A DNA stretch of 36,738 nt from an uncultured Selenomonadales bacterium. Its GTDB lineage: Bacteria; Bacillota; Negativicutes; Selenomonadales; Selenomonadaceae. Shown one piece after another: positions 287 to 33,590 of this stretch; the first letter of the stretch is position 1, and each line of letters starts with the position of its first letter. Below the pieces are notes generated by a model. That model was not told where the DNA came from, made no database searches, and was given only the letters and a program-made list of their open reading frames with translations. The position numbers were made by a program, and so were the translations under genes. The DNA lies in assembly GCA_946411735.1 (NCBI GenBank), contig CAMKFB010000015.1, forward strand, positions 1 through 36,738. The letters are read 5' to 3'.

Positions 287-3127
287 TCAGTCAAAGCCGT
301 TGAGCTTGAGCAGCAAAAATTCTTCTTCGTCCTTGCTCAGCGCTTGACCCTGCACCACCTTGCGCACCACCGACTGCATCTTATACAGCCGCCGCTTTTC
401 GTCCGAAGTGTAGTACATATTCATCTCGTCGAGCGTCTTGATCGCAAGCTGCACCGCGCCCTCATCAATGTCATTCTCCGTCCGCCGATCGCATATCCAG
501 CCCAGCGCCAGCACACAACAGATCGTCTCGTCAATCGACACGCGCTGATTGAGGATCACGTCGCTCAGCTCCTCGACCACTCGCGCCTTGTCCACCCGCG
601 TCCGCGTCTCCCGACCGTCAAGGTAAAACGACAGCCCGATCGAGTACGAACTGAATTGTATATTGCTCTTGAGTCCGCGCCCAAGCATCCCGATATCACG
701 CTTGAAACAATCGTAAATCCAATCGACCTGCGTCTTGGTCTTGGCGTGCGTGTACAGGCAGGCATTGAGATATCGTTCATCCGAGTGCAGCCGCTCCAGC
801 TGATTCAATTGCTCCGTCGTCGCGCACATCGACATCGCAAAGATCGCCTGCAACTTCGTGTTCGTGTTCGATGACGAGCTCCAATAATCCCTCAAGTTGA
901 TCCCCTGCAAGTCACTGTCAAGCTGCATCATACACTCGTTCGCGAGCCGCCGCTTTTGATCCTCCGTCCAAGTGCTTCCGATCTTGCGCGCGATGATGAA
1001 ACACCGCTGCTTAAATTCATTGCTCCGCGTCGAGGGAATCATTCGGAGGATCGGCGCCGCAAAGTCGTCGGTATTGCCCGCCGTGCACACGCTGTTGACC
1101 AACGTGCGAATCTCCTTCGCGATCGCCGACTTCTTTGCGATATATGCCTTGCCGTAGAGATTTTCGTAATTCCGACAGAGCTGCTCGATGTTGTTGAGCA
1201 CCGCCTCCGGCTTGAGATTGCTGCCAACGCGCGGAATAATTTTGCCCTTCTTGTCGGAGCTGAAGTCGGTGTGAATCGAGATATCGACGCGCCCCTGCTC
1301 GAGAATCTGTGTGCCGTCGACGTCGTTGCACGTCCACGCCTCCATCGTGATCACTTTCGAGCTTGCCATATACACTCGAAACGCCACGTACGCGCCGTCG
1401 GGATATTTGCGCGTGAAGACGATGTTGCCGCGCGCGATCACCCGATAGGTGCTGTCGATGTTGCGACTGAGGATCGGGATCGCAATCTGTTTGTAATTCG
1501 GCATCAGTTTGAAGCCCTTCATCATTTCCGAAGTGTACGGCAGCTCCGCGCCCGAGGGAATGATCTTCACCTGCGTGTCGTTCTTCGTCGCAAGGTAAAG
1601 GCTGTCGTTGAGAATGTTGCGCCCCCACTCGATCGACAGTGGCGGCTTGAGCAGCGTCACTTCGTCGTCCGACTCGTATTTCTTATCGGCTTCGCTCCGC
1701 GCGGAGCTCACGTCGCCGACCATCCGCATGTTATCCTTGATCTCTTCGTATTTGTGGAGATAATAGTGATAAACCGCCGCGCCGCGCGCAACCGCCTGAT
1801 CGGGATCGATCGCCACGATCGGCTCGAATCCGAAAAACTTTTTGAGCCGATCGGTCACCATATAAAACTTCGACATGCCGCCGTTCATGATCACCGCGTC
1901 GATCGTCACGTTCGATGTGCCGAGTTTCTCCGCCGCCTTGTTGAGCACGTCGAGAATCGGATAGATGATGTTTCGAGTGTGCGTCTCGCCGGTCAGCTCG
2001 TCGAGCCGCTTGTAATCGTCGAACTTGAGGTTGAGCCCCATAAACGGATTGAGAATCTCCTCGATCTCCTCGACCGTGAAGGTGTCGTCGTAGGCATAGC
2101 CCGTGCTGCTGATGTTGCCGCCGATCGGAAAATCGTTGTCCTCGTCGTCCTCATCCCACCCCGACGAGATGATGTTCTCACTCTTGCGATCGCTGAGCTC
2201 AAGCTTCAACTCCTCGGCGTAGACCAACAGTTGAGGCATAATCGTTTTCTTCTCTCGACGGAGCTTGCTGACGATATCCGCGTGTCGCTCGTGCTGTTTG
2301 ACGTAGCGGCGGAACATCGCCTCCGCAATCGCCTGATCAAAGTCGTCGCCGCCGAGCAGCGTATATCGATTGGTGGCAATCTCGCTGACCTTCAAAATCT
2401 CCGAAGACGAGTCCCGACGCGCTATTTCATGCAGCGTGATATCGAGCGTCCCGCCGCCGAGATCGAACACCATCACATTGCGTTTTTTGCTCAAGTCGAG
2501 CACGTTGGCAGGAATCTCACCGTTGTGCGCTTGATTGATGAAATCGTAAATGACGGCATTCGGTTCGCTTAACAGCACCGGGCGCTCCGAGTCGTCGTCG
2601 TTTTTTATTTTGATGCCCGCGATCTCCGCCGCGTCCCGCGTCGCTCGACACATGCTCGAGTCGAAATTCGCCGGCACGGTGATCACCGCGTCATCGATTT
2701 TTGTTCGGAAAATCCTCTCCGCGTGTCGTATCATATGCTCGAGTATCCGCGCGGAGATTTGCGCCGGAGTTTTATCCGGCACTTCCGGCGAGAGCCCCTC
2801 TGCGAACTCCCGCCCCATCTGACTTTTAATAGACTTCGCCACAAGATGAGGTCGAACGGGATAACGTTTCTTGGCGAAGTCGCCGACGACCGTTTTGTAA
2901 TGATGTTCGTCATCGTAGTAGACGCACGAAGGTAAAGTCGGGCGTCGCTGAGTATTAAACTTGGCTCCCTCGACAACGGTATAGGTGTCGACGGCGCGCG
3001 GAATTTCCACCACCTTGCTTATGATGTCCCCGTTGAGCTTGACATTGATGATTGACAACACGGAATTGGTCGTGCCCAAATCAATTCCGACGCACAGATC
3101 GTTGTGCTCCTCTCCGTTAATTTTCAT
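287..3127 (-). CDS. Atypical Hsp70 family chaperone with long helical C-terminus
   Basis: A 946-residue cytoplasmic Hsp70-type ATPase. The actin-like nucleotide-binding domain spans about residues 10-455: phosphate-1 GIDLGTTNS (14-22), phosphate-2 FDLGGGTLD (221-229), adenosine-side NGGMSK (415-420) and DPDQAVARGAA (441-451). A DnaK-like beta-rich substrate-binding region follows at about 495-620. The remaining ~300 residues (about 640-946) look all-helical and replace the short DnaK lid, so the protein is about 300 residues longer than DnaK, with no EEVD-like or disordered tail. An acidic insert (WDEDDEDND, 324-332) interrupts lobe II. The start is ATG at 3127, behind AGGAGGT. It is the last gene of an operon with an MBL hydrolase and a GrpE-like factor, 21 nt from the latter. 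No J-domain protein is visible. It is probably a specialised chaperone; its client is unknown. Confidence 0.9.
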   Translation of the reverse strand: MKINGEEHNDLCVGIDLGTTNSVLSIINVKLNGDIISKVVEIPRAVDTYTVVEGAKFNTQRRPTLPSCVYYDDEHHYKTVVGDFAKKRYPVRPHLVAKSIKSQMGREFAEGLSPEVPDKTPAQISARILEHMIRHAERIFRTKIDDAVITVPANFDSSMCRATRDAAEIAGIKIKNDDDSERPVLLSEPNAVIYDFINQAHNGEIPANVLDLSKKRNVMVFDLGGGTLDITLHEIARRDSSSEILKVSEIATNRYTLLGGDDFDQAIAEAMFRRYVKQHERHADIVSKLRREKKTIMPQLLVYAEELKLELSDRKSENIISSGWDEDDEDNDFPIGGNISSTGYAYDDTFTVEEIEEILNPFMGLNLKFDDYKRLDELTGETHTRNIIYPILDVLNKAAEKLGTSNVTIDAVIMNGGMSKFYMVTDRLKKFFGFEPIVAIDPDQAVARGAAVYHYYLHKYEEIKDNMRMVGDVSSARSEADKKYESDDEVTLLKPPLSIEWGRNILNDSLYLATKNDTQVKIIPSGAELPYTSEMMKGFKLMPNYKQIAIPILSRNIDSTYRVIARGNIVFTRKYPDGAYVAFRVYMASSKVITMEAWTCNDVDGTQILEQGRVDISIHTDFSSDKKGKIIPRVGSNLKPEAVLNNIEQLCRNYENLYGKAYIAKKSAIAKEIRTLVNSVCTAGNTDDFAAPILRMIPSTRSNEFKQRCFIIARKIGSTWTEDQKRRLANECMMQLDSDLQGINLRDYWSSSSNTNTKLQAIFAMSMCATTEQLNQLERLHSDERYLNACLYTHAKTKTQVDWIYDCFKRDIGMLGRGLKSNIQFSSYSIGLSFYLDGRETRTRVDKARVVEELSDVILNQRVSIDETICCVLALGWICDRRTENDIDEGAVQLAIKTLDEMNMYYTSDEKRRLYKMQSVVRKVVQGQALSKDEEEFLLLKLNGFD
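1696..1705. repeat. TCCGCGCGGA palindrome, copy in Hsp70 gene
   Basis: Exact TCCGCGCGGA, extended to CTCCGCGCGGAG. Reads as Ser-Ala-Arg within SSARS (about 474-478), after the ATPase domain. Confidence 0.9.
2746..2755. repeat. TCCGCGCGGA palindrome, second copy in Hsp70 gene
   Basis: Exact copy in the nucleotide-binding domain, read as Ser-Ala-Arg (ISARIL, about 124-129). Confidence 0.9.
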
Positions 3128-3148
3128 GGCGTACCTCCTGCCGTTAAC

Positions 3149-4223
3149 TCAATCGTCGTCGCCGAGCTCCTTGATTTTGGGGCGCGCGATTTGAATGTCC
3201 TTGTCGGTGTAAATCCAACCGGGGGAGATGACGCGGATGATTTTCTCCTCGTCCTTGTCGACAAACGGCGTGCCCTCGTAATCACAGAACTCGATATCGG
3301 ACGCTTTGACGATTTTTTCATCGTCGAGTTTCATAATGGGATCGATGTGGCTGTCGCGAACGAACTGGATCAGTTTTTGCGTGATGATGAACAGCCCGCT
3401 CAACTCGGGCGGCAGCTCGTAATGATTTTTTTTGAGCTTGTTGACGCCCTTTCTTACGCTCAACAGCCCGTCGAGAATGCAACCGTACTTCTCCGAGTTA
3501 AGCCGCGAGAAAAATTCGGTGAGTTCTTTGGTTTTGCTTTCGCGAAGCGACTCCTCGAACTCGTCCTGGAGCGCCTTGGTCAAACGTTCGTTGCGTTCGA
3601 GCAGCGTCTTCAATCGCTCGATCTTTATTTTTCGCTCCGCGCGGAGGTCGCTTGACCGCGCCGCAATACTTCGCAAGCGCATCGGTCATATCGTCGAGGA
3701 AATCATTGGCGTAAGCGTTTTTGAAGTGCTCGAGCAGCTTGAGATCGTCGTAGATGTCGAGCTCGGGATGCCGACAATAGATCATCAGCACGCCGATCCG
3801 CTCCTGCAGTTTATATCGGCTGCCCTCCTGCGTGAGCACATCGGTCTTGCGATGATTTTTGAATCGCTGATAATCCTCGGGGTCGGAGGTTTTGAGCGCC
3901 TGCATGAGAAGATCGGCAAGTTCCTCCGCCCAATCGAGCAGTTCCCGCCGCTTCTGTCGATGCGACACGTGAAACTTTCGGAACTGGCGAATGATATCGT
4001 AGCCGCGATAGTCGGTGCCGACGGCGTCGTTTAGCTTATCGGCGTATTCGCGCGGCTCGGCGTCGGCGTTGAGACAGAGGATGCCGAACAGTTGATTTTC
4101 GCGGATCACGTCCTCGTCAATGTAATCGCTTGCCTTCTGATACTTTTGCTTGGCGCAACTGTGGATGTCGGCGAGGAATTTTCTCAGCCTGTCGTTCTTA
4201 AAGTCCAGCACTATATCGCACAC
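3149..4223 (-). pseudogene. GrpE-like nucleotide-exchange factor, split by a frameshift
   Basis: Two overlapping frames read as one protein of about 355 residues. The upstream frame (from GTG 4223, or better GTG 4211, nine nt after AAGGAG) gives a helical N-terminal domain to about DALAKYCGAV. The downstream frame then gives a coiled coil (LRAERKIKIERLKTLLERNE), a short LDGLLSVRKGVNKL helix and a GrpE-like end with HIDPIM, EKIIRVISPGWIY and IARPKIKEL. These resemble GrpE's DPNxHEA, IVEVLQxGYxL and RPAxVxV. The downstream frame is +1, so one extra base modulo 3 lies between about 3628 and 3665. That interval holds a 5-T run (3628-3632) and the TCCGCGCGGA palindrome (3636-3645). The cause could be a real mutation, a sequencing error or recoding. 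The gene sits between the MBL and Hsp70 genes, the expected place for an Hsp70 cofactor. The GrpE call is from motif reading only. Confidence 0.65.
3636..3645. repeat. TCCGCGCGGA palindrome at the GrpE-like frameshift
   Basis: Exact copy, extended to CTCCGCGCGGAG, in the short interval where the two frames of the GrpE-like gene must join. Its 10-bp length equals one base modulo 3. Confidence 0.9.
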
Positions 4224-4232
4224 TCCTTTGAT

Positions 4233-5330: not shown

Positions 5331-5381
5331 GAAAATTATTTGGTTGCTTCTCGTCGCTGAGCCCTCCCTTCTGAAGACTTG

Positions 5382-5410
5382 ATCTTATATTTTATTGTGA
5401 TCGCCGTCAA
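5382..5410 (-). promoter_or_regulatory. Putative sigma-A promoter of the MBL-GrpE-Hsp70 operon
   Basis: On the minus strand TTGACG (5405-5410) is followed after 17 bp by TAAGAT (5382-5387), about 50 bp before the MBL start. It sits back to back with the MATE promoter region. The -10 match is only moderate. Confidence 0.5.
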
Positions 5411-5426
5411 CGAAAAATTTTTTTGA

Positions 5427-5432
5427 TATAAT
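5427..5432 (+). promoter_or_regulatory. Putative -10 box of the MATE gene
   Basis: A perfect TATAAT at 5427-5432. No convincing -35 is seen; CGTCAA lies about 17 bp upstream. The box overlaps an in-frame ATG at 5431, which argues that translation starts at ATG 5455 instead. Confidence 0.5.
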
Positions 5433-5454
5433 GTTTGCAGGGGTGAATCGAACT

Positions 5455-6792
5455 ATGTTTGGCAGCAGGGAAATTGACATGCTTCACGGCTCTCTTTGGG
5501 ACAAGATAATTTGGTTTGCGATCCCTCTGGGCTTGACGGGCGTGATGAATCAGATGTTCAACACCGCCGATGTCGCCGTGCTCGGCAAGTTCGTCGGCAA
5601 GGAAGCGATGGCGGCGGTCGGCAACAACATTTCGCTGATCGGGCTGCTCGTCAACTTATTCATGGGGCTGTCGCTCGGCGCGAATGTGATCATTGCTCAA
5701 AATATCGGCGCTCAAAATTTCGAGCGGGCGCGCGCCGCCGTCCGCACCGCCTTCGTCCTGTCGATCGCGACGGGGCTCGGGATTGTAATCGTCGGGCAAG
5801 CGGCGACGAACGTTGTGCTCGATATGATGGAGGTTCCGAGCGAAGTTCGCGACATGGCGGAGACTTACCTTCGATTATATCTGTTGAGCATGCCGGCGAT
5901 GAGCATCTACAATTTTGAGGCGGCGATTTTCCGAAGCCGCGGCGACACCAACACGCCGTTGATTGCGTTGGCGATCGCTTCCGCGCTCAACCTCGGGCTC
6001 AATCTGATTTTCGTCTCGACCTTCGACAACGGAGTGTTCGGCGTGGGCTTGGCGACCGTGATCGCCGACTCGATTTCCGCGCTGATCCTTTTCGTCGAGC
6101 TGATCCGCGCGGAGGGCGTCATTCACCTCGACATTCATGATCTCTCGATCGATCGCGATCGATTGAAGGAAATCGTTAAGATCGGCATGCCCGCCGGCAT
6201 ACAAGGCATGGTGTTTTCGCTGTCGAACCTGTTGATCCAAGCAGCGATCAATTCCCTTGGCGCCGACGCGATGGCCGCCTCCGCCGCCGCCTTCACCATC
6301 GAAGTCAACGTGTTTTGCATCATCAACGCCTTCGCGCAAGCGGCGACCACATTCGTCAGTCAAAACTTCGGCGCCCGCAATCTCGAGCGCTGTCGACGCG
6401 TGACGTGGTTGGCGATGGGGCTGGGCGCAATCTTCATGGGCGTGCCGGCGATCTTCATATTGACATTCGCCGAGGAGCTGCTGGCATTTTTCAACAGCGA
6501 CCCCAACGTGATCACGCTCGGCAAAATCCGATTGTGGTACATCGTCGCGCCCGAGATCGTCAACGTCCTGCTCGAGGGCTTATCGGGAGCGCTCCGCGGC
6601 TACGGCATTTCGATGGCGCCCGCCGTCATAATTTTGATCGGCGTGTGCGGCGTGCGGATCACATGGCTGTTCACCGCCTTCGTCGCCGCGCCGACCTATC
6701 AGACTCTGATGACTGTCTACGCCGTCAGCTGGTTCGTCACCACCGCGCTGATGTGCGTCGCCTATCGATTTTACATGCGACACATTCACTAA
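5455..6792 (+). CDS. MATE family multidrug/cation efflux transporter
   Basis: A 445-residue inner-membrane protein with about twelve hydrophobic helices in two homologous halves. Family-like segments include GLTGVMNQMFNTADVAVLG near the N-terminus, LGANVIIAQNIGAQN, FRSRGDTNTPL and, in the second half, FAQAATTFVSQNFGARN. MATE proteins export organic cations or drugs in exchange for Na+ or H+. The start at ATG 5455 is preferred over 5431 because AGGGGTGA lies 8 nt upstream and the -10 box overlaps the earlier ATG. It is a single gene, divergent from the chaperone operon and followed by a separate promoter for ilvE. The substrate cannot be read from sequence. Confidence 0.93.
   Translation: MFGSREIDMLHGSLWDKIIWFAIPLGLTGVMNQMFNTADVAVLGKFVGKEAMAAVGNNISLIGLLVNLFMGLSLGANVIIAQNIGAQNFERARAAVRTAFVLSIATGLGIVIVGQAATNVVLDMMEVPSEVRDMAETYLRLYLLSMPAMSIYNFEAAIFRSRGDTNTPLIALAIASALNLGLNLIFVSTFDNGVFGVGLATVIADSISALILFVELIRAEGVIHLDIHDLSIDRDRLKEIVKIGMPAGIQGMVFSLSNLLIQAAINSLGADAMAASAAAFTIEVNVFCIINAFAQAATTFVSQNFGARNLERCRRVTWLAMGLGAIFMGVPAIFILTFAEELLAFFNSDPNVITLGKIRLWYIVAPEIVNVLLEGLSGALRGYGISMAPAVIILIGVCGVRITWLFTAFVAAPTYQTLMTVYAVSWFVTTALMCVAYRFYMRHIH
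6104..6113. repeat. TCCGCGCGGA palindrome in MATE gene
   Basis: Exact copy, read as Ile-Arg-Ala-Glu in a cytoplasmic loop between transporter halves. Confidence 0.9.
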
Positions 6793-6796
6793 AGAC

Positions 6797-6825
6797 TTGA
6801 CAGTGTTTGACGCCGATAATAAAAT
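6797..6825 (+). promoter_or_regulatory. Sigma-A promoter of ilvE
   Basis: TTGACA (6797-6802), a 17-bp spacer and TAAAAT (6820-6825), starting 4 bp after the MATE stop codon and about 45 bp before the ilvE start. A near-consensus housekeeping promoter. Confidence 0.75.
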
Positions 6826-6869
6826 AAAATTCGCTGTGATTAAAAACTGAATTTCGATCGGAGATGTTG

Positions 6870-7934: not shown

Positions 7935-7968
7935 TTTTTGTGGGCTACTCTTTTTTGGAGGGTTGTGA

Positions 7969-8814: not shown

Positions 8815-8826
8815 GGAGGTGATCGG

Positions 8827-12394: not shown

Positions 12395-13734
12395 TGTCGA
12401 GATTGTTTGGAACGGACGGCGTGCGCGGCAAGGCGAACGTCGATTTGACGCCGGAGCTTGCCTATCGATTGGGGCGGGCGGCGGCACTGTATTTTTGCCA
12501 CGACGGCTCGGCGCCGCTTATCTTGATCGGGCGCGACACGCGCATTTCGGGCTCGATGTTCGAGGCGGCGTTGACGGCGGGCATCTGCTCTGCGGGCGGG
12601 CACGTTGTCATAGTCGGCGTGATCCCGACGCCGGGCATCGCCTTCCTCACGCGCAAACTTAAGGCGGCGGCGGGCATCGTGATAAGCGCTTCGCACAATC
12701 CGTTTTACGACAACGGGATCAAATTTTTCGGCGGCGACGGATATAAGCTGCCTGATGCGGTCGAGGACGAGATCGAATCGATTGTTCGTTCGATCGAGAG
12801 CGACGATCGATATGCGCGGGCGGTCGACGATCGGATCGGGCGGTTGGAGTACCGTCACGACCTGTTGAATGATTACATCGACTTCGTGTTGACGACGACG
12901 AATATTCGGCTCGACGGTCTTAAAGTGGTGCTCGACTGTGCGAACGGCGCGGCTTATGAGGCGATGCCGAAGGTCTTGAAAAAGCTCGGCGCGGAGCTGA
13001 TTTTGGTCGGCGTGGAGCCCGACGGCATAAACATTAACGATCGTTGCGGCTCGACGCACATCGAACGCCTTCAAAAGATTGTGGTCGACAACGGCGCGGC
13101 GATCGGCATTGCTCACGACGGCGACGCGGATCGCTGCCTTTGCGTCGATGAAAAAGGTCAGATCATCGACGGCGATCACATCTTGATAATGTGCGCGCTT
13201 GAGATGATGCGCCTGGATCGTCTTCCGAATTTGACGGTGGTGACGACGGTGATGGCGAATATCGGCTTCCGTCAAGCGATGGAGCGGCTCGGCGGGCGCT
13301 ACGAGATCACCAAGGTCGGCGATCGCTACGTGCTCGAGAATATGAGGAAGAACGGCTATAAATTGGGCGGCGAGCAATCGGGGCACATCATCTTTGCGGA
13401 TTACTCGACGACGGGCGACGGTTTGATCACGGCGCTGCAGGTTTTGACGACGATGGTCGAGAGCGGGCGGCGCGCGTCGGAGCTCAACGCCCTGATGACG
13501 ACTTATCCTCAAGTGCTGTTGAACGTCAGAGTGAAGAACAGAGACGTATGCGGCAATCCGATTGTGCAAGAGGCGATCCGCGCGGGTGAAGCGGAGCTGG
13601 GCACGAGCGGACGGATATTGGTGCGTGCGTCGGGGACGGAGCCGCTGGTGCGCGTGATGGCGGAGGGACCCGAGCGCGAACAGCTCGAGACGATCTGCCG
13701 GCGGATTGTATCGGTGGTGGAATCGGTGCAATGA
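12394..13734 (+). CDS. glmM: Phosphoglucosamine mutase GlmM
   Basis: 446 residues. It isomerises glucosamine-6-phosphate to glucosamine-1-phosphate on the way to UDP-GlcNAc, peptidoglycan and other glycans. The N-terminus is LFGTDGVRG. The active-site phosphoserine loop is GIVISASHNP (Ser about 100). The metal-binding loop is AHDGDADRC, the sugar-specificity loop is GGEQSGHII, and the phosphate-binding loop is RILVRASGTEPLVRVM. ATG 12394 is preferred over the preceding in-frame TTG because GGGAG is well spaced. It overlaps the upstream stop by one base and cbiK by ATGA. In Bacillota GlmM also interacts with CdaA, which fits this operon. Confidence 0.97.
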   Translation: MSRLFGTDGVRGKANVDLTPELAYRLGRAAALYFCHDGSAPLILIGRDTRISGSMFEAALTAGICSAGGHVVIVGVIPTPGIAFLTRKLKAAAGIVISASHNPFYDNGIKFFGGDGYKLPDAVEDEIESIVRSIESDDRYARAVDDRIGRLEYRHDLLNDYIDFVLTTTNIRLDGLKVVLDCANGAAYEAMPKVLKKLGAELILVGVEPDGININDRCGSTHIERLQKIVVDNGAAIGIAHDGDADRCLCVDEKGQIIDGDHILIMCALEMMRLDRLPNLTVVTTVMANIGFRQAMERLGGRYEITKVGDRYVLENMRKNGYKLGGEQSGHIIFADYSTTGDGLITALQVLTTMVESGRRASELNALMTTYPQVLLNVRVKNRDVCGNPIVQEAIRAGEAELGTSGRILVRASGTEPLVRVMAEGPEREQLETICRRIVSVVESVQ

Positions 13735-14468
13735 CGGGGCTGATTGTTGCGAGCTTCGGCACGGTCGACGATGCCGAGCGCGCGCGGACGCTCGATGCGA
13801 TCGCCGAGGATATTGCGGCTGAATTTCCGTTGATACGATTGAAGTCGGCGCTGACGTCGAGATTTATCCTTCGACGCTTGAAAGAAAAAAAAATCCGCTC
13901 GATCGAAGAACAGATTGCGGAGCTCCGCGCGGAGCACGTCGATGAGATCATAATCCTGCCGACGCATTTGACGCCGGGCGAAGAATTTGAGAACAAAATC
14001 CTGCCGTTTGCGACAGCGGGCGTGAAGGTATTGCCGCCGCTTTTCTCGACGGAGTGTCGGACGGAGTTTGATCGGCGGGCGTTGGACGTGGTGATCGATT
14101 GCTTTCGACGGTCAAGCGATGAAGAATTGGTTTTGATCGGGCATGGGTCGCCGCATCGCCACAATTCTGTTTACGAAAATTTACAGCGGCTCGACGGGCG
14201 CATTCACATCGGCGTGCTCGAGCCGACGGATCGCCCGAATTATGATGATGTGCTCGGACGGTTACGCTCGATCGGAGCAAAAAAAATACTCCTCGCGCCG
14301 TTGCTTTTGACGGGAGGAGTGCACGTCGTTGAAGACATTGCCGATCGTTGGTTCAATCGGTTAAAGGCGGACGGCTTTGAAGTGCGGGCGTTGACCGAGG
14401 GGCTGGGCACCTTCGCCGCCTTCCGCCGCCTTTACATCGATCGGTTGAGAATCAATATTTCTGATTGA
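13731..14468 (+). CDS. cbiK: CbiK-like sirohydrochlorin cobaltochelatase
   Basis: 245 residues, a class II chelatase of the CbiK family, which inserts Co2+ (or Ni2+/Fe2+) into sirohydrochlorin in anaerobic B12-type synthesis. Recognisable: VASFGTVDDAERART near the N-terminus, TSRFILRRLKEK, LPTHLTPGEEFE, the first metal/catalytic His in LIGHGSPHRH (His about 138), and LTGGVHVVEDIADRW (His about 198), where the family often has GDHAxNDM. The second motif is diverged, so activity or specificity may differ. The start overlaps glmM (ATGA); no other cobalamin gene is nearby. It ends convergently over the last 17 bp of the FliT-like gene. Confidence 0.85.
   Translation: MTGLIVASFGTVDDAERARTLDAIAEDIAAEFPLIRLKSALTSRFILRRLKEKKIRSIEEQIAELRAEHVDEIIILPTHLTPGEEFENKILPFATAGVKVLPPLFSTECRTEFDRRALDVVIDCFRRSSDEELVLIGHGSPHRHNSVYENLQRLDGRIHIGVLEPTDRPNYDDVLGRLRSIGAKKILLAPLLLTGGVHVVEDIADRWFNRLKADGFEVRALTEGLGTFAAFRRLYIDRLRINISD
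13924..13933. repeat. TCCGCGCGGA palindrome in cbiK
   Basis: Exact copy, extended to CTCCGCGCGGAG, read as Leu-Arg-Ala-Glu (65-68). Confidence 0.9.
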
Positions 14469-18265: not shown

Positions 18266-18275
18266 TCCGCGCGGA
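18266..18275. repeat. TCCGCGCGGA palindrome between flaG and fliD
   Basis: Exact copy in the 45-bp gap between the two genes, so not under coding constraint. Confidence 0.9.
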
Positions 18276-24889: not shown

Positions 24890-24901
24890 AGATCGAAAAA
24901 A

Positions 24902-24911
24902 TCCGCGCGGA
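24902..24911. repeat. TCCGCGCGGA palindrome upstream of the flagellar promoter
   Basis: Exact copy 13 bp upstream of the -35 element of the flgM promoter, in non-coding DNA. Confidence 0.9.
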
Positions 24912-24950
24912 GCGATCGAGGTCGCTCGACCGTCGAAAAAAAATCGGGAC

Positions 24951-24980: not shown

Positions 24981-25053
24981 CCGAGTCCGTTTCATTATAT
25001 TTCAGCACCATTGATTGCGGCTCAACTGCGTCGAGCCAATTTATTACCTGTGT

Positions 25054-25130
<77 letters not shown>

Positions 25131-25138
25131 AGCCGTGG

Positions 25139-27235: not shown

Positions 27236-27272
27236 AAAAAAATCCCTCCCTCTGCGCTGATTCCGCTTAATG

Positions 27273-27300
27273 TTATCGACACATGGCGCCGAAAACTTTA
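27273..27300 (-). promoter_or_regulatory. Sigma-28-like promoter of the AAA+ gene
   Basis: Minus-strand TAAAGTTT (27293-27300), a 12-bp spacer and GTCGATAA (27273-27280). The -35 is a perfect FliA match and the -10 differs at one base; the spacer is one longer than the consensus 11. It ends 38 bp before the chosen start. Confidence 0.65.
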
Positions 27301-27318
27301 GCGTTACTTCACAAATTC

Positions 27319-27347
27319 TTGATAGCGGCATCGACGAAAGGTATAAT
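27319..27347 (+). promoter_or_regulatory. Sigma-A promoter of ridA
   Basis: TTGATA (27319-27324), 17-bp spacer and a perfect TATAAT (27342-27347), about 31 bp before the ridA start. Confidence 0.8.
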
Positions 27348-27378
27348 TGAATTTATTTTATCGACGGAGGGATTGACG

Positions 27379-27750
27379 ATGAAAAAAATTTACACGGATA
27401 AGGCGCCGGCGGCGGTGGGTCCGTACTCTCAAGCGATCGAAATTAACGGGATGATATTTTGCTCGGGACAAATTGCGATCGATCCGACGGTCGGCAAAAT
27501 CGTCTCGACCGACATTGAAGGTCAAGCGGAGCAATGCTGTCGAAATTTGAAGGCGGTGCTCGAGGAGGCGGGCGTCGGGCTCGAGCGGGCGGTGAAGACG
27601 ACGTGCTTTTTGGCGGAGATCAAAGACTTCGCGAAGTTCAACGCCGTCTACGAAAAATATTTCGTCGGCAAGCCCGCGCGGAGTTGCGTGGCGGTGAAGG
27701 ATTTGCCGGCGGGCGCGCTCTGCGAGATTGAAGTGATCGCCGCCAAGTGA
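27379..27750 (+). CDS. ridA: RidA family 2-iminobutanoate/2-iminopropanoate deaminase
   Basis: 123 residues. It hydrolyses reactive enamine/imine intermediates released by PLP enzymes such as threonine dehydratase. Motifs: YTDKAPAAVGPYSQAIEING (start), CSGQIAIDPTVGKIV, QCCRNLKAVLEEAG, and the active-site end GKPARSCVAVKDLPAGALCEIEVIA, with the substrate-binding Arg. GGAGG lies 8 nt before ATG 27379. Divergent from the AAA+ gene and overlapping the next membrane-protein gene (TGATG). Confidence 0.96.
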   Translation: MKKIYTDKAPAAVGPYSQAIEINGMIFCSGQIAIDPTVGKIVSTDIEGQAEQCCRNLKAVLEEAGVGLERAVKTTCFLAEIKDFAKFNAVYEKYFVGKPARSCVAVKDLPAGALCEIEVIAAK

Positions 27751-29150
27751 TGAGCCCCGCGTCGATTTTCGTTCTGATGGCGGCGTGGCTGATAATGTTT
27801 TGGTGCAATCGACTGATGCCCATGGTCGGCGACGACTATCTTTATTCGTACATCATCGACGAGCACACGATTTTCTACAGTTTCGTGCCGGAGACCGCCG
27901 TTCGCGTCGACTCGATTGCCGACATCATCACTTCGCAATGGAATCACTACTTCCTCTGGGGCGGGCGGACGATCGCTCATTCCATCGATCAATTTTTTTT
28001 GTGGTTCGGTGAGCTGCCGTTCGATATTGCTTCCGCCTCCGTCGCCGTGCTTTTGATCGTCGAGATTTATTGGATTGTTGATCGCGGGCGCGTCTCGACG
28101 GATTTTCGCTCGAGTCGGCTCATTTGGATTTTCTTTGCGCTTTGGACCTTCACCATCAATTTCGGTTCGACCTTCCTGTGGACGACTGGCTCGTGCAATT
28201 ACCTTTGGACAACCGTCATACTGCTCGGCTTTTTGCTCCCTTACGTTCGACAGTGGTTCGTCGCTCGCCCGCTCGAGATCAATCCGGTTGTTATGTTGAG
28301 CGCGGGCGTGATCGCCGGCTGGACGAACGAGAACACCGTCTGCTGGTTTATCATTGCGATCGCGCTGATGTGTCGTCGGCTCCGCGCGGAGGGTCGGATG
28401 AGCCGTTGGATGATCGCGGGGCTGATCGGACTGTCGATCGGCTACGCGCTGTTGATCTTCGCGCCCGGCAATTTCGCCCGCGCCGCGCTCAACACCGAGC
28501 ACGCCCGCGCCATCATTCTCGAGGACGCTTTGACTGCGGGAGCTTTATTGGGCGCCGGTTTATGGTTTCAGGTGATGATGTGGTACTTCTTCGTCCGAAC
28601 GCTCATCGCTCAAAAAAAATTCGGCGACGACGTTGATGTCCGTCGGTCGCTCCGCGCGGCTAAGATTTTCGCGGCGATCAGTCTGCTGTCGAATCTAATC
28701 ATGATGTTGTCGCCGGAGCTTGCCGTCCGAAGTTTTTTCCCGAGCCTGGTTTTCTTGATCATTGCCGTGACGATCGTCATTCGCCTGCAACACGAGACGC
28801 GCCGCAACACTCTCGATTTGTCTCTGCGGATTTTCCTCCACTCCGTCGGCGGCATCGTCTTCACGTTGAGCATCTGCGCGACGGTCATGTACTTGTCGAT
28901 TTTTAACAACTATTATCGACAGGTCGAGCATCTCATTGAAAATGTCGACGGCGATCAGATTGTCGAGGTGCGGGATTTTGATTGCCCCTCTTGGATGTCG
29001 ACGGCGGCGTTTTCGCATACGCCGGGCAATTTTTTGGCGCGGCGCAACGGCAAGGACACTTGGATCAATCCGATTTACGCTCATTATCACGGCATCAAGG
29101 GAATTTGGCTTGAATCCGAAGAGGACGGCGATGATGTTCACTCCGACTGA
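27750..29150 (+). CDS. DUF6056-like polytopic membrane protein
   Basis: 466 residues with about nine or ten hydrophobic helices. The early segment CNRLMPMVGDDYLYSY followed by a WNHYFLWGGRTIAH motif and NFGSTFLWTTGSCNYLWTT matches the DUF6056/GT-C-like membrane family often linked to surface glycan modification. The conserved acidic DD after the first helix is the kind of residue used by lipid-sugar-dependent GT-C enzymes, but activity is unproven. The C-terminal ~90 residues are soluble. ATG 27750 overlaps the ridA stop, and the 3' end overlaps the prepilin peptidase start by about 20 bp. Confidence 0.75.
   Translation: MSPASIFVLMAAWLIMFWCNRLMPMVGDDYLYSYIIDEHTIFYSFVPETAVRVDSIADIITSQWNHYFLWGGRTIAHSIDQFFLWFGELPFDIASASVAVLLIVEIYWIVDRGRVSTDFRSSRLIWIFFALWTFTINFGSTFLWTTGSCNYLWTTVILLGFLLPYVRQWFVARPLEINPVVMLSAGVIAGWTNENTVCWFIIAIALMCRRLRAEGRMSRWMIAGLIGLSIGYALLIFAPGNFARAALNTEHARAIILEDALTAGALLGAGLWFQVMMWYFFVRTLIAQKKFGDDVDVRRSLRAAKIFAAISLLSNLIMMLSPELAVRSFFPSLVFLIIAVTIVIRLQHETRRNTLDLSLRIFLHSVGGIVFTLSICATVMYLSIFNNYYRQVEHLIENVDGDQIVEVRDFDCPSWMSTAAFSHTPGNFLARRNGKDTWINPIYAHYHGIKGIWLESEEDGDDVHSD
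28381..28390. repeat. TCCGCGCGGA palindrome in the DUF6056-like gene
   Basis: Exact copy, extended to CTCCGCGCGGAG, read as Leu-Arg-Ala-Glu in a loop between membrane helices. Confidence 0.9.
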
Positions 29151-29772
29151 AATAATTTTGAGCGCGGTGCTTTCGATGGTGCTGACGATGATCGGCTCGA
29201 GTTGGATCGATCGGCTCTATGCTCGAGAGGACACGCCTTTGACGTTCCCCGAAGCAATCTCCGCGCGGAGCCGCTTTCGACGACCGTTGCTGTCGATCGG
29301 ATTGTTTGTATGCTTGATCGCAACGATCGGGCGCCCGCCGGTCGAGGCGCTTTACTTAACGACGGCGGCGTTTTTATTGCTGTTGATCACGGCGACGGAT
29401 TTCGAGCAGTACGTGATCTTCGATCGAATGTCGCTGCCGTTGGCGCTGATCGGATTGCTCATGACGATGCATTTGGGGCTGCCGATCGCGGATCGATTGA
29501 TGTCGGCGCTGGTCGGCGGCGGCGCGTTTCTATTGATGACGATCTTGACGGGCGGAGCGCTCGGAGGCGGCGACATCAAACTGATCGCGGCGTTGGGATT
29601 ATGGTTGGGCTCGGAGCGATTGCTCGACGTGGTTTTCTACGGGTCGATGGCGGGCGGAGCGGCGGCGCTGCTGATGCTGTTGACAAAACAAAAGGACCGT
29701 AAGAGTGCCTTCGCCTACGGTCCGTATTTTGCGCTGACGGCGCTGTTCTTTCTGCTCACGCATTCTGCATAG
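29131..29772 (+). CDS. Prepilin (A24) peptidase, catalytic domain only
   Basis: 213 residues, about six membrane helices. It cleaves type IV prepilin or prepilin-like leader peptides. The two aspartates of the GxGD class are present: ATDFEQYVIFDR (first Asp about residue 88) and GGALGGGDIKLIAALGLWLG (second). The N-terminal cytoplasmic loop lacks the CxxC pairs of the methyltransferase domain found in full-length PilD. It starts at ATG 29131 or 29134 inside the previous gene, after GAAGAGGA, so it is translationally coupled. An open frame extends farther upstream but is a shadow. Convergent overlap with recG of 17 bp. No pilin gene is seen here. Confidence 0.9.
   Translation: MMFTPTEIILSAVLSMVLTMIGSSWIDRLYAREDTPLTFPEAISARSRFRRPLLSIGLFVCLIATIGRPPVEALYLTTAAFLLLLITATDFEQYVIFDRMSLPLALIGLLMTMHLGLPIADRLMSALVGGGAFLLMTILTGGALGGGDIKLIAALGLWLGSERLLDVVFYGSMAGGAAALLMLLTKQKDRKSAFAYGPYFALTALFFLLTHSA
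29260..29269. repeat. TCCGCGCGGA palindrome in prepilin peptidase gene
   Basis: Exact copy, extended to CTCCGCGCGGAG, read as Ser-Ala-Arg in the first cytoplasmic loop, where longer family members carry the CxxC domain. Confidence 0.9.
29694..29723. terminator. Putative bidirectional hairpin between prepilin peptidase and recG
   Basis: GGACCGTA (29694-29701) and TACGGTCC (29716-29723) form a perfect 8-bp stem with a 14-nt loop, flanked by an A-rich run before and GTATTTT after. It is inside the last codons of the peptidase gene, where the two genes converge. Confidence 0.5.
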
Positions 29773-31849
29773 ACACAAACTTGTCGCCGTACGCGACGTA
29801 CAATTTTTTGCTGAGTCTCGCATAGCGCGCGAGATTTTTTTTGTCCGACATAAATTCTTCCGCTGCCTCCCGAGCCTCCTTCAACATCCCCAAGTCTCGA
29901 AACACGTCTGCGATCTTCAAATCAGGCAAGCCGTGTTGAGCCTCACCAAAAAATTGCCCCGGTCCTCTCAAGCGCAAATCTTCCTCCGCCAATTGAAAGC
30001 CGTTCGATGTCGTCTCCATGATCTCGAGCCGCTCGACGCCCACATCATTTTTCGTGTCGGAGATCAAGATGCAATACGCCGCATCGCTCCCCCGCCCGAC
30101 TCGTCCTCTCAATTGATGTAGCGTCGCCAGCCCGAATCGCTCCGCGTGCTCGACCACCATCACTGACGCGTTCGGCACGTCGACCCCGACTTCGATCACC
30201 GTCGTCGAGACCAACAGTCGAAATTCCCCCGCGCGGAACCGTTCCATCACTTCATCCTTTTCGCGCGGCTTCATTCGACCGTGCAACAGCGCGCAATCTA
30301 CCGTCGCGAACATTCCTTTGCTCAGCTCCTCAAAAACTTCCTCCGCCGACCGCACGCCCTCGAGTCGTTCACTCTCGCTCGGTTCGATCAAAGGACATAC
30401 CACATACGCCTGCCGCCCGCGATCAAGCTCGTCCATCACAAACTCGTATACCCGCCGCCTTTGAGCCTGCCGCTTGACTGTCGTCGTGATCGGCTTGCGC
30501 CCCGGCGGCAACTCTTTGATCTGCGATACGTCCAAATCGCCGTAGACCGTCAACGTCATCGTGCGAGGGATCGGCGTCGCCGTCATCACGAGCATATCCG
30601 GTCGCCGCTCCGATTTCTGCTCGAGCACCGCCCGTTGTGTCACGCCGAATCGATGTTGTTCGTCCGTCACCACCAGCCCCAACCGTCGAAATTGAACGCC
30701 CTCCTCGATCAGCGCGTGCGTCCCAATTACGATATCAAACTCGCCGCTCGCGATTTTTTCATACGCCGTCTCGCGCCGCTTCTTCGCCCGCGTCACTTGA
30801 CCCGTCAGCAGCCCGATCCGAATCCCCAACGGCTCGAGCATCGCCGAAAATTTTTCGTAGTGCTGCATCGCAAGAATTTCCGTCGGCGCCATCAGCACTC
30901 CTTGATTGCCGCTCGCGACCGTCTTGACCAGCGCCAACATCGCCACCGCCGTTTTACCCGAGCCAACGTCGCCTTGAATCAGCCGCCGCATCGGTCGATC
31001 GCTTTCCATGTCCGATGTGATCTCCTCCAAGACCGACCGTTGATCGCCCGTCAACGCAAACGGCAACGCCTCGAGCGCCGCCCGCATCAATCGACCGTCG
31101 GGCGCGTGCTTGATCCCAAGCTGATCGTCCTGCGCCTGCTGCTTGATCAGCAACAGCCCGCATTGGATCAAAAACAGCTCGTCGAACGCCAACCGCCGCC
31201 GCGCCTGCTCCATCTCATCCCGATCGGACGGGAAATGGATCGCCCGCATCGCCTCGTCGAGCGACATCAGATCGTAGCGCGCAATGATCTCGGGCGGCAA
31301 GATTTCGTCGAGCTCCGGCATTTTCGTCATCAGATTGCTCATCGCCGTCCGAAAAAATTTTTGACTGAGACTCGCCGTCGACGCGTAGATCGGCGCAATC
31401 CCAAGGTTCGGCTCCTCGTCCTCGTCGAGAATTTCATACGAGTGCACCTGCATCGCCAGCAGATTGCCGTTCGAATACGACTCGGTGACCTTGCCCTTGA
31501 CGAACAGCCGCATCCCGTTTTTGAGCGTGTTGAGCAGATACTTTTGATTGAACCACGTCAGCTGCACGTAATCAAAATCGTCGCCGAGCAGCGCGTTGAT
31601 GATGAGCAGCCCGTTGCGCGCTTGCCTCGAGCGGATATTCGACAGATGCCCCTCGACCGCCTCCACCTCCCCGACGGTCAGCGCGGAGATATCGCTCAAG
31701 ATGCACTCGTCCTCGTATCCGCGCGGATAATGCGTGAGGAAATCGTAAAATGTCTTGATGCCGATTTTGTTGAGCGCCGCCGCCTTGCGCGGTCCGACGC
31801 CCTTGAGATACATGATGTTGTCGGTGAGTTCAAATTTGTCGCGGCTCAT
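29756..31849 (-). CDS. recG: ATP-dependent DNA helicase RecG
   Basis: 697 residues. It remodels stalled replication forks and branch-migrates Holliday junctions. The N-terminal HhH-like YLKGVGPRKAAALNKIGI (14-31) and the wedge (OB) domain are followed by the SF2 core: Walker A IQGDVGSGKT (291-300), APTEILAMQH, DEQHRFGVTQR (396-), TATPIPRTM, and C-terminal VSTTVIEVGVDVPNA and QLRGRVGRG. The length is normal for the family. The start is ATG 31849, one base over the ABC ATPase stop (TAATG). Last gene of the nucleotidase-ABC run. Confidence 0.98.
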   Translation of the reverse strand: MSRDKFELTDNIMYLKGVGPRKAAALNKIGIKTFYDFLTHYPRGYEDECILSDISALTVGEVEAVEGHLSNIRSRQARNGLLIINALLGDDFDYVQLTWFNQKYLLNTLKNGMRLFVKGKVTESYSNGNLLAMQVHSYEILDEDEEPNLGIAPIYASTASLSQKFFRTAMSNLMTKMPELDEILPPEIIARYDLMSLDEAMRAIHFPSDRDEMEQARRRLAFDELFLIQCGLLLIKQQAQDDQLGIKHAPDGRLMRAALEALPFALTGDQRSVLEEITSDMESDRPMRRLIQGDVGSGKTAVAMLALVKTVASGNQGVLMAPTEILAMQHYEKFSAMLEPLGIRIGLLTGQVTRAKKRRETAYEKIASGEFDIVIGTHALIEEGVQFRRLGLVVTDEQHRFGVTQRAVLEQKSERRPDMLVMTATPIPRTMTLTVYGDLDVSQIKELPPGRKPITTTVKRQAQRRRVYEFVMDELDRGRQAYVVCPLIEPSESERLEGVRSAEEVFEELSKGMFATVDCALLHGRMKPREKDEVMERFRAGEFRLLVSTTVIEVGVDVPNASVMVVEHAERFGLATLHQLRGRVGRGSDAAYCILISDTKNDVGVERLEIMETTSNGFQLAEEDLRLRGPGQFFGEAQHGLPDLKIADVFRDLGMLKEAREAAEEFMSDKKNLARYARLSKKLYVAYGDKFVSMQNA
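31718..31727. repeat. TCCGCGCGGA palindrome in recG
   Basis: Exact copy read in the third phase as Pro-Arg-Gly (YPRGYED, about 41-47), a conserved RecG motif. Confidence 0.9.
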
Positions 31850-32631
31850 TAATCGAGCTCCTTTCGATAGCCGAGAATCTTTTCGCCGGCGCCGTTGATG
31901 AAAAAGTCGGCGTCGACATTGAAAACCGCGCGGATCAATTCGGGGTTGAGAACTTCGACGGGATTGCCGCGCGCAAAAATTTTTCCGTCGCGAAGGACAA
32001 TGACTTCGTCGGCGAAATCCCGGGCGTGATTAATATCGTGCAGCACCATCACGACAGTCATCGAGCGGCGGCGGTTGACGTCGGCAATAATGCGCATCAC
32101 CTCAAGCTGGTGATTGATGTCGAGGTAAGTGGTGGGCTCGTCGAGCAGCAAAGTTTTCGGCTGTTGAGCGAGCGACATTGCAAGCCACGCGCGCTGACGT
32201 TCGCCGCCGCTTAAGGTCGAGACTTGTCGATCGGCAAGGTGAGCGACGTTGGTGACGCTCATTGCCCACTCGACGGCGGTGCGATCTTCCTTCGGATTGC
32301 CGCTCGAAAATAATTTTTGATGCGGGAATCGACCGTAGTACGTCAATTGGCGGACGGTGGTATCGATCGGAGCTTCGCGCTCCTGCGGGAGGATTGCGAT
32401 CGATTGAGCGATCGAGCGGCGATTGAGCGAACGGATATCAACGCCGTCGAGCGTGACCGTGCCGCTGAAATTTTCGTTGAGCAAACAGAGCGCGCGCAAC
32501 AGAGTAGACTTGCCGGCTCCGTTGGCGCCGATGATTGCCGTCCTTTTTCCCTCGGCGAAGGCGTGAGTGATGCCGTCCAAAATAATTTTTTTGTCGATCG
32601 CGATACTTATATTGTCAACAGCCAGTTTCAT
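31849..32631 (-). CDS. Iron-siderophore/cobalamin-type ABC transporter ATPase (FecE/BtuD-like)
   Basis: 260 residues from ATG 32631; the longer open frame to 32865 only overlaps the permease gene. Walker A GANGAGKST (35-43), Q-loop ILPQE, signature LSGGERQRAWLAMSLAQ, Walker B LLLDEPTTYLDI and the switch His in VLHDINHA. The DLDxxHQ-like TTYLDINHQLEVM is typical of the iron/B12 uptake class. It overlaps the permease by 4 nt (ATGA), so one transporter unit is made. No binding protein is adjacent. Confidence 0.95.
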   Translation of the reverse strand: MKLAVDNISIAIDKKIILDGITHAFAEGKRTAIIGANGAGKSTLLRALCLLNENFSGTVTLDGVDIRSLNRRSIAQSIAILPQEREAPIDTTVRQLTYYGRFPHQKLFSSGNPKEDRTAVEWAMSVTNVAHLADRQVSTLSGGERQRAWLAMSLAQQPKTLLLDEPTTYLDINHQLEVMRIIADVNRRRSMTVVMVLHDINHARDFADEVIVLRDGKIFARGNPVEVLNPELIRAVFNVDADFFINGAGEKILGYRKELD

Positions 32632-33590
32632 AATTCTCGTCTCAACAGGTAAAGAAAAAACGGCGCCCCGAGGATCGCCATCAAAATGCCGACCGGCAAC
32701 TCCGTCGGCGCGAAGACCGTCCGCGCAAACGTGTCGCTTGCCGTCACGACCGCCGCTCCGAGCAATGCCGTCGCCGGCAACAGCCAACGGTGATCCGAGC
32801 CGATCAACATCCGCGCGGAGTGCGGCACGATCAGCCCGACGAAGCCGAGCAGACCAACCACACAAACCGCCGACGCCGCGAGCAGTGCCGCGACCGCCGT
32901 CATCAGAGTCCGCACGAGATCGACGCGTTGACCGAGCCCCTTGGCGACCTCGTCCCCCAATTGCAGGACATTAAGATGTTTCGTCCCGAGCATCGCGAGT
33001 ATCGTCCCGACGATGGTGTAAGGCAAAATGATTGCGACGTGATTCCACGACCGCGCCGATAAGCCTCCGACCATCCAAAGCAGCGCGCCGTGCACTCGAT
33101 CGCTGTAGAAAATGAGCATCGCCGAGATGCCCGCGCCGAGGAAAGCGCTGACGGCGACTCCGGCGAGTATGACGCGGATCGGTCGAATGCCGTGCTTCCA
33201 AGCGAGCACGTAAATGAGAACGGCGGCGAGCATTGCTCCGACGAAGGCGGCGGGAGTCAAAAGCGTCCCCGCATCGCCCTTGACGAGCATCACGAAGATG
33301 CCGAATAAGCCCGCGCCGGAGGAGATTCCGATGATGTGAGGATCGGCGAGCGGATTTTTCATGACGGCTTGGAGGATCGCGCCCGAAAGCGCCAGATTGA
33401 TCCCGACCAGCATCGCGACGATCGTGCGCGGCAGTCTGATGTTGTCAATGATCTGTCGCTCCGTCGGATTCAAAGCTGCGCCGTTGAGAATGTTCATGGC
33501 GGGAATGTCGACGGAGCCGAAGGACAGACTTACGACGAAGGCGCCCGCCGCGAAAATTATCAGCGTCGACAGCACAAAAATCTTTTTCAC
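32628..33590 (-). CDS. FecCD/BtuC-type ABC transporter permease
   Basis: 320 residues, about ten membrane helices. Family segments: RLPRTIVAMLVGINLALSGA, LQAVMKNPLADPHIIGISSGAG and GLLGFVGLIVPHSARMLIG, followed by PTELPVGILMAILGAPFFLYLLRR at the end. FecCD permeases import iron-siderophores, haem or cobalamin. Starts at GTG (GTGA overlap with the nucleotidase stop). No periplasmic binding protein gene in the window. Confidence 0.95.
   Translation of the reverse strand: MKKIFVLSTLIIFAAGAFVVSLSFGSVDIPAMNILNGAALNPTERQIIDNIRLPRTIVAMLVGINLALSGAILQAVMKNPLADPHIIGISSGAGLFGIFVMLVKGDAGTLLTPAAFVGAMLAAVLIYVLAWKHGIRPIRVILAGVAVSAFLGAGISAMLIFYSDRVHGALLWMVGGLSARSWNHVAIILPYTIVGTILAMLGTKHLNVLQLGDEVAKGLGQRVDLVRTLMTAVAALLAASAVCVVGLLGFVGLIVPHSARMLIGSDHRWLLPATALLGAAVVTASDTFARTVFAPTELPVGILMAILGAPFFLYLLRREL
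32810..32819. repeat. TCCGCGCGGA palindrome in FecCD permease gene
   Basis: Exact copy read as Ser-Ala-Arg in the conserved VPHSARMLIG motif. Confidence 0.9.

Follow-up and report, generated by a model that had tools for sequence, protein, structure and literature searches.

The palindrome TCCGCGCGGA recurs throughout the window (the whole 36,738-nt stretch of DNA analysed here) and throughout the 2.42 Mb genome to which it belongs, G000, in which 841 copies compare with 5 of the reversed word, a density of 0.35 per kb. Related words, most of them non-palindromic, occur in congeners at about 0.1-1.2 per kb. The best explanation, which we consider moderately probable, is that the word is a symmetric dialect of a Bacillota uptake-sequence system whose dialects differ between clades. 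Strand neutrality, perfect copies about as numerous as one-mismatch copies, persistence of sites between sisters, weak AT-rich flanks in two dialects and the presence of ComEC and pilus genes are all traits of uptake sequences, hence this reading; these features, like the enrichment itself, the agreement of dialects with clades and the even spacing in G000, were observed directly. Among named genomes the nearest is a Selenomonadaceae MAG from roe-deer rumen (Negativicutes, diderm Bacillota), and the host of the window is probably a rumen bacterium. The analysis used draft assemblies throughout, and almost every named relative is a MAG.

Copies of the palindrome in the window

An earlier note on this DNA had located 11 copies of TCCGCGCGGA, and all 11 coordinates are exact. 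The word was said to extend often to the 12-mer CTCCGCGCGGAG, which holds for six copies. The chance expectation of well under one copy is borne out by dinucleotide shuffles of the window (mean 0.34 copies, maximum 2), although the GC content is 55.4% and not the 58% assumed. The copies, with their counterparts in the sister genome G117, are:

1696..1705, TCCGCGCGGA as the 12-mer CTCCGCGCGGAG, within an HSP70-like gene (287-3127, minus strand); 3 differences in G117
2746..2755, TCCGCGCGGA, within the same HSP70-like gene (287-3127, minus strand); exact match kept in G117
3636..3645, TCCGCGCGGA as the 12-mer; 4 differences in G117
6104..6113, TCCGCGCGGA, within a MatE-family gene (5431-6792, plus strand); exact match kept in G117
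13924..13933, TCCGCGCGGA as the 12-mer, within a CbiK-like gene (13731-14468, plus strand); same core in G117, flanks differing
18266..18275, TCCGCGCGGA as the 12-mer, intergenic by our gene caller; 8 differences in G117
24902..24911, TCCGCGCGGA, intergenic by our gene caller; gap in the G117 alignment
28381..28390, TCCGCGCGGA as the 12-mer, within a DUF6056 gene (27747-29150, plus strand); outside the G117 alignment
29260..29269, TCCGCGCGGA as the 12-mer, intergenic between convergent genes by our gene caller; 3 differences in G117
31718..31727, TCCGCGCGGA, within recG (29756-31849, minus strand); 3 differences in G117
32810..32819, TCCGCGCGGA, where the ABC-ATPase and FecCD ORFs, as listed, overlap; outside the G117 alignment
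31925..31934, near-copy ACCGCGCGGA, with the core CCGCGCGG at 31926-31933

Every codon phase is represented, on both strands, in line with the independence from phase that had been claimed. Copies between genes are present as well, but our gene caller places three there (18266, 24902 and 29260) and not two.

Enrichment and spacing

The Markov comparison proposed in the earlier note confirms the enrichment: a 436,738-base sample of G000 holds 157 copies, whereas orders 3, 4, 5 and 6 expect 2.2, 3.4, 13.3 and 27.1. Orders 7 and 8 expect 92 and 151, close to the observed count because their sub-words hold nearly the whole motif, and for that reason we rejected this agreement as a refutation. The sub-word CCGCGCGG is insufficient as an explanation, as 203 of its 377 occurrences in 569,027 bases have T..A ends compared with 18 expected from base composition. 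The ratio of perfect to one-mismatch copies is 1.03 in G000 (203 and 198 in a recount, which left it standing), 0.85 in G012 and 0.70 in G142, while reversed words give 0.03-0.09; it is weaker in G058, at 0.22 versus 0.065 for the reversed word. One-mismatch copies in G000 differ most often at the outer bases. Copies in G000 are spaced more evenly than at random (CV 0.818 versus 0.995, with none of 2000 simulations as low), an evenness absent from two control word sets. Close pairs are scarce in G012, with nothing more to its spacing, and no evenness was seen in G142. One 9.96-kb stretch free of the word turned out to be mostly a giant repeat gene. These local statistics on G000 cover about 0.44-0.57 Mb of its 2.42 Mb.

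Dialects across the genus and family

Among the 28 of 66 genus genomes in which TCCGCGCGGA was counted, it is numerous in one besides G000, namely G117 (592 copies). The TCTGCGCGG dialect occurs in 35 of the 66 at a threshold of at least 200 copies and at least five times the reversed word; G154 and G163 have more than 200 copies but less than five times the reversed word and so lie outside this tally. Seven of the 66 use the CTGCGCGA dialect, at up to about 1.2 per kb, and one, G058, the YCTGCGCA dialect. The core common to the dialects is C[T/C]GCGC[G/A]. G172 is mixed (706 TCTGCGCGG and 772 CTGCGCGA), and the boundary between dialects is therefore not always sharp.

A RecG tree of 28 rows, with five unsupported forks and long branches for G040 and G006, recovers the seven CTGCGCGA genomes (support 100/99) and the two TCCGCGCGGA genomes, G000 and G117 (100/100), as monophyletic, requires three changes for the six CTGCGCGG rows, and scatters the word-poor genomes. 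The two main sister words (the CTGCGCGG and CTGCGCGA dialects) are asymmetric, and the palindrome is that of G000 and G117. Because 140 kb of G142 contain neither of the palindromic variants, CCGCGCGG or CTGCGCAG, we disfavour a homodimer reading of the symmetric site as a general rule.

Other genera of the family carry 0-29 copies of TCCGCGCGGA per genome, none near 592, and likewise 0-29 of the reversed word; some genera have a few times as many copies of the word as of its reverse (in g9, for instance, 7-26 versus 1-24). No related word emerged from de novo scans of 15 of 20 other-genus stretches, the remaining five being too short; the strongest excess was that of the unrelated AGCACGAG in L071 (11 versus 0.81). 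Similar scans of 6-55 kb from each word-poor genus member found no equally strong related word, YCTGCGCA in G058 excepted, and showed excesses of unrelated words, AGCGATCG in G162 and GGATCTGA in G040.

Strand, flanks and persistence of sites

The words have no strand or gene-orientation preference. Sense and antisense counts are 87/86 and 77/86 for CTGCGCGA and 53/54 and 19/19 for CTGCGCGG, and the asymmetric dialects divide between contig strands as 57/57, 38/33, 52/58 and 20/20. AT-rich tracts lie beside the core in the CTGCGCGG dialect, at roughly -7..-2 and +16..+22 counted from the first base of CTGCGCGG; they are weak (at most 0.12 bits on the downstream side and 0.23 at -2 on the upstream side), weaker still in CTGCGCGA and faint in G000. 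Of 25 sites compared between sisters, 15 are conserved, whereas 3.2 would be expected at matched flank identity. Sixteen phage-portal contigs hold 43 words versus 77.4 expected from rounded genome sizes, and in five of them the count approaches or exceeds the expected one (as in L207, 14 versus 14.6, and L210, 7 versus 3.1); the 16 come from 28 matches over the cut-off, after omission of word-poor genomes, three contigs of G134 and one of G172.

Competence and pilus genes

ComEC is found in 62 of the 66 genus genomes, word-poor ones included, and G000 carries PilB, PilT, PilC, PilN and PilO as well as minor-pilin-like genes. In all seven word-bearing genomes with a whole locus pilC directly adjoins pilT (in an eighth, G012, the pil locus is cut by a contig end). 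This arrangement occurs in none of three word-poor genus members: in G040 pilC lies elsewhere on the same contig, and for G162 and G098 the result refers to the pilT neighbourhood, viewed for G098 in 5-kb stretches. Members of other family genera (G005, G006, G007 and G019) have PilB, PilT, PilC and an N_methyl pilin, yet no word in number, and the divergent G040 has a pilin and PilC with the word absent; hence the pilus is not in itself enough to bring the word. A search for the major pilin by the N_methyl pilin profile (PF07963) gave no match in the eight word-bearing genomes scanned. A PDB fold search with the model of a candidate minor pilin gave no match at E 0.001 or better; among weaker matches the relevant one was 5g23, a type IV-like pilin of Thermus (E 0.04, TM 0.45).

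Explanations for the iterated word

If the uptake reading is correct, a genus of rumen-type Selenomonadaceae would use a DNA uptake sequence of which the word is the local dialect. Free word-bearing DNA would be bound by a type IV pilus on the cell surface, probably via a minor pilin, ComEC would carry it inward, and homologous recombination would swap out the resident copy. As word-bearing fragments would be preferentially imported, words born by mutation could pass from cell to cell and multiply across the genome with no need of a local function. Whenever the preference of the reader shifted, the genomic word would follow, giving rise to the clade dialects TCTGCGCGG, CTGCGCGA, YCTGCGCA and, in the clade of the window, the symmetric CTCCGCGCGGAG. 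Preferential uptake, a pilin receptor and recombination drive are thus what we infer for these genomes. To our knowledge, a palindromic uptake word is unusual. We regard as evenly balanced the broader proposal that sequence-specific uptake arose independently in diderm Bacillota, with at least four dialects in one genus, one of which has become fully palindromic and reads alike from either side, and that loss of the competence pilus leads to loss of the word.

The earlier note had likened the word to the cyanobacterial HIP1, and as a highly iterated palindrome it is indeed comparable in kind. Elhai 2015 (PMC4390886) reports a candidate methylase for each cyanobacterial genome in which a word is highly over-represented, and reports that one-mismatch copies of HIP1 also differ most often at outer bases. 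A mechanism of this kind, in which mutation bias or methyl-directed repair creates and maintains copies of a word that a methyltransferase modifies, would suit a GC-rich palindrome in G000 and G117 and the two m5C methylases of G000, but we consider it unlikely. The methylase site that the note had also suggested found no such backing: in a search for m5C enzymes, with G000 and G117 91-93% complete and four of seven m5C loci read out, no methylase common to both was found. G117 has a single complete one, which shares 32-34% identity with the two of G000; for its broken C10 copy the figure is 28%. One of those of G000 is 74% identical to that of G079, a genome of a different dialect. Twenty of the 66 genomes have no m5C methylase match, among them the word-rich G138, G128, G086, G144, G181, G148 and G125. 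As the main sister words are also asymmetric, the HIP1 model fits badly, and the absence of palindromic variants from the G142 sample counts against it too.

If the word were bound by a nucleoid-organising or chromosome-architecture protein, at sites distributed evenly round the chromosome, this would account for the spacing in G000 and for the conservation of sites between sisters, and a symmetric site suits a dimer. However, the two commonest dialects are asymmetric, the AT-flank structure and the ratio of perfect to mismatched copies resemble those of uptake sequences, and known organising sites are far fewer than the copies here; the support for this explanation is weaker than for an uptake sequence, and we find it doubtful. 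It is very improbable that the word is a recombination hotspot like Chi or a polar sequence like KOPS. The words here are short and have clade-specific versions, and Chi is likewise species-specific, but they have no bias by gene orientation or contig strand, the palindromic version cannot be polar, and enrichment over order 3 is about 70-fold, which is higher than for Chi. Even less credit can be given to an artefact of composition or codon usage, to which the GC-richness of the word might point, the genome itself having about 56% GC, or to copies of a small mobile element. Codon or amino-acid preference was rejected because all phases and both strands are represented, mobile-element copies because common flanks are no longer than a few bases; with the Markov and reversed-word controls and the relatives that lack the word, this explanation is already refuted.

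Comparison with known systems

The uptake-sequence literature, in the sections available, centres on Pasteurellaceae and Neisseriaceae, both Proteobacteria (PMC1626085, PMC3630211, PMC1939737, PMC7811141), and none of the matches listed reports an uptake sequence in these Selenomonadaceae. Should the uptake reading be true, it would add a third, unrelated origin, in outer-membrane-bearing Bacillota, and an independent replicate for the question of why cells prefer self-marked DNA. It would also bear on the co-evolution of receptor and genomic word and on the outer membrane as a precondition, would imply frequent natural transformation in these Selenomonadaceae, and would provide practical tags for transforming them.

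Veillonella parvula belongs, as we take it, to the same class, Negativicutes. It has a comparable pilus-type competence locus and favours genomic over PCR DNA; the authors of that study report that no sequence of at least 10 bp reaches 100 copies, and they judged an uptake sequence an unlikely cause of the bias (PMC5397411). Cyanobacterial HIP1 and the alternate HIPs, as described in the accessible text (PMC4390886), share with the clade of the window a GC-rich iterated palindrome, and differ in that the main sister words here are non-palindromic and no common m5C methylase was found.

The Pasteurellaceae USS (Haemophilus influenzae AAGTGCGGT type) are similar in having, by the portion of the account available (PMC1626085), hundreds to thousands of copies, perfect copies that rival one-mismatch copies, AT-rich flanking tracts and subclade versions. 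The present words have another core, occur in another phylum (Bacillota), have weaker flank tracts and include one palindromic dialect, and uptake is what we infer for them. Like the Neisseriaceae DUS, as far as the available text describes them (PMC3630211), they form several dialects with an invariant core that are congruent with phylogeny; the core is a different one, and there are eight dialects in that family and four here. The DUS receptor in Neisseriaceae is known, in the same source, to be ComP (PMC3630211), whereas the counterparts here are candidate pilins.

Enrichment of the palindrome in the genome

The palindromic 10-mer TCCGCGCGGA is present at all 11 positions listed in the earlier note, as compared to a mean of 0.34 copies in dinucleotide shuffles of the window. 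The assembly of the window's genome, G000 (2,418,287 bases, 93% complete), of which the window is contig C15, contains 841 copies of it and 5 of the reversed word. The excess held up against Markov models: 157 copies were counted in 436,738 bases of G000, where 2.2 (order 3) or 13.3 (order 5) are expected. The sub-word CCGCGCGG is also enriched (286 vs 48 expected in the G000 sample), but the possibility that it fully explains the longer word was not borne out, as 203 of the 377 CCGCGCGG copies (54%) carry T..A ends vs 18 expected. In eight control palindromic 8-mers, such ends were found on 0-11% of the copies. The consensus of the word in G000 is gCTCCGCGCGGAGc, and its perfect copies (203) are about as numerous as all one-mismatch copies (198).

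Another palindrome, AAAAATTTTT, is over-represented in 437 kb of G000 (66 vs 6.4). A giant ORF (L008:3-9425, contig C3; L-numbers denote stretches of the compared genomes), which encodes over 3,100 residues and opens with a long Ser-Ser-Gly repeat, lies in a region where 9.96 kb are devoid of TCCGCGCGGA. Intergenic copies at L015:13862 and L093:7601 are located between convergent genes within longer inverted repeats beside runs of T, as though co-opted for transcription termination.

Distribution of the word and its dialects

Among 28 genus members counted, TCCGCGCGGA is numerous only in G000 and its sister G117 (592 copies), with 0-25 copies in the other 26. In 123 family members outside the genus, both TCCGCGCGGA and the reversed word occur 0-29 times. 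When words were counted de novo in stretches of 20 kb, related words, or dialects, emerged in congeners, and these were then counted in all 66 genus genomes. With minimum requirements of 200 copies and a fivefold ratio to the reversed word, TCTGCGCGG passes in 35 of the 66 (maximum 1128 copies). CTGCGCGA reaches 1242-2335 copies in seven, exceeding the reversed word by a factor of 3 to 13; G186, G163 and G172 follow (796, 780 and 772; reversed 540, 553 and 185). YCTGCGCA, for which the reversed control is uneven, occurs 1204 times in G058 vs 119 reversed, the next highest genome having 379. About 21 of the 66 genomes have no clear level of any of the four words, and no related word was found in the scanned stretches from other genera. 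AAAATTTT is abundant in most congener stretches (e.g. L028, L030, L040).

A 28-row RecG tree groups the CTGCGCGA genomes in a single clade and the TCCGCGCGGA pair in a separate one, whose sister group consists of six word-poor genomes. Word-poor genomes are scattered over several places in this tree, which could be explained by losses or multiple gains. The word-poor G162 (L106, L165) has an excess of AGCGATCG (in 46 kb, 21 copies vs 1.4), which may be a separate word particular to this genome and unrelated to the others. The dense words around GGATCTGA and CAGATCCA in G040 (L026; 39 and 34 in 20 kb) probably belong to a repeat-rich gene.

RecG relatives in named genomes amount to 11 loci, the closer ones being Selenomonadaceae and Selenomonadales MAGs. 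Three of the 11 are labelled as samples from the forestomach of ruminants (roe deer rumen, goat omasum, goat reticulum), and G117, the nearest relative of G000, matches RGIG4916 from roe deer rumen. From these sources we infer a rumen origin of the window.

Strand, conservation and spacing

Neither a coding-strand preference (sense/antisense 87/86, 77/86, 53/54, 19/19) nor a contig-strand preference (57/57, 38/33, 52/58, 20/20) was found. The gain and loss of orthologous sites was compared over 80.8 kb aligned between G000 and G117 at 78% identity. The word is identical at 15 of the 27 sites in G000 and at 15 of the 20 in G117, whereas matched flank identity predicts 3.2 of 25 and 3.4 of 20, respectively. 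Two conserved cores lie within clearly diverged flanks. Eleven of the 12 non-conserved G000 sites and two of the five non-conserved G117 sites have at least three mismatched positions or fall in gaps.

The spacing of G000 sites is more even than random (CV 0.818 vs 0.995; none of 2000 simulations was as low), and control words in G000 do not show this evenness. It is not seen in G142, and G012 shows only a scarcity of close pairs.

Competence and pilus genes

G000 and its relatives belong to the Negativicutes, which are Bacillota that have an outer membrane. An excerpt of PMC5007114 states the same for the class. ComEC was matched in 62 of the 66 genus genomes; the four lacking a match are 70-80% complete. 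G000 carries the following genes:

L091:16728-19076, full-length ComEC
L012:12890-14047, PilB
L154, PilT and PilC
L220:332-3304, operon containing PilN, PilO and two minor-pilin-like genes

The two minor-pilin-like genes in L220 are candidate minor pilins, a call that rests on a prepilin-like start and the fold because Pfam gave no match for it. The predicted structure of the first product has a long N-terminal helix and a beta domain (mean pLDDT 78.5), and weakly matches a Thermus type IV-like pilin. This product is 42.5% identical between G000 and G117, vs 84% for PilB and 76% for PilC.

In all seven word-bearing genomes with the whole locus (G000, G117, G079, G142, G108, G086, G058), pilC directly follows pilT; this is so in none of three word-poor genus members (G162, G098, G040). 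The N_methyl profile detected no pilin in G162, in G098 or in any of the eight word-bearing genomes that were scanned, and one each in G040 and five of five other-genus genomes. The pilins of the genus are either too divergent for this profile or absent in that form. A Fic-family gene lies directly 3' of pilC in both TCCGCGCGGA genomes (L154:5191-5820 in G000, L157:10673-11275 in G117); G058 has an FtsE-like ABC ATPase and pilins at that place.

Interpretation

The words combine high density, dialects that follow clades, a common core, lack of polarity, a high ratio of perfect to mismatched copies, and persistence. The same set of traits is reported, in the portions of the literature consulted, for the DNA uptake sequences of Neisseriaceae (DUS) and Pasteurellaceae (USS). 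The earlier note had also considered a methylase site, and according to a section of Elhai (PMC4390886) each cyanobacterial genome with such words has a candidate methylase. m5C methylases are present in 46 of the 66 genus genomes, but many word-rich genomes have none, and the TCCGCGCGGA pair does not share an orthologous one: the two enzymes of G000 are 32-34% identical to the complete enzyme of G117 and 28% to its broken copy on contig C10. An m5C-methylase site fails to account for the combined traits, as does Chi. By analogy with DUS and USS, and with these two alternatives failing, it is fairly probable that the words constitute an uptake-sequence system, in which the functional step would be preferential uptake of word-bearing DNA.

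Several results run contrary to an uptake system. G172, in which the dialects are not sharply separated (772 copies of CTGCGCGA beside 706 of TCTGCGCGG), is one of them. G040, although word-poor, has pilC and a pilin farther along the contig, and other genera possess pilus genes without the word, which argues against a simple pilus-word link. The 16 phage-portal contigs contain 43 words vs 77.4 expected, but in five of them (L207, L210, L212, L214, L219) the count is close to or higher than expected. A limited literature search found no published uptake sequence for Negativicutes; the part consulted of a Veillonella parvula study (PMC5397411) describes a genomic-DNA bias, but no long repeated word.

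The core common to the dialects is C[T/C]GCGC[G/A]. G142 has neither of the palindromic variants CCGCGCGG and CTGCGCAG in 140 kb (0 and 0 vs 133 CTGCGCGG), so the reader of its word is asymmetric; in the window's clade the two ends of the word look equivalent. The flanks of 353 CTGCGCGA and 226 CTGCGCGG sites are AT-rich, most clearly upstream (-7 to -2), and for CTGCGCGG also downstream, at about +16 to +22 from the first base of the word. These flanks are similar to the two AT-rich segments described for the Haemophilus USS in a portion of PMC1626085, but the AT tracts of the dialects are weaker and one of them is upstream.
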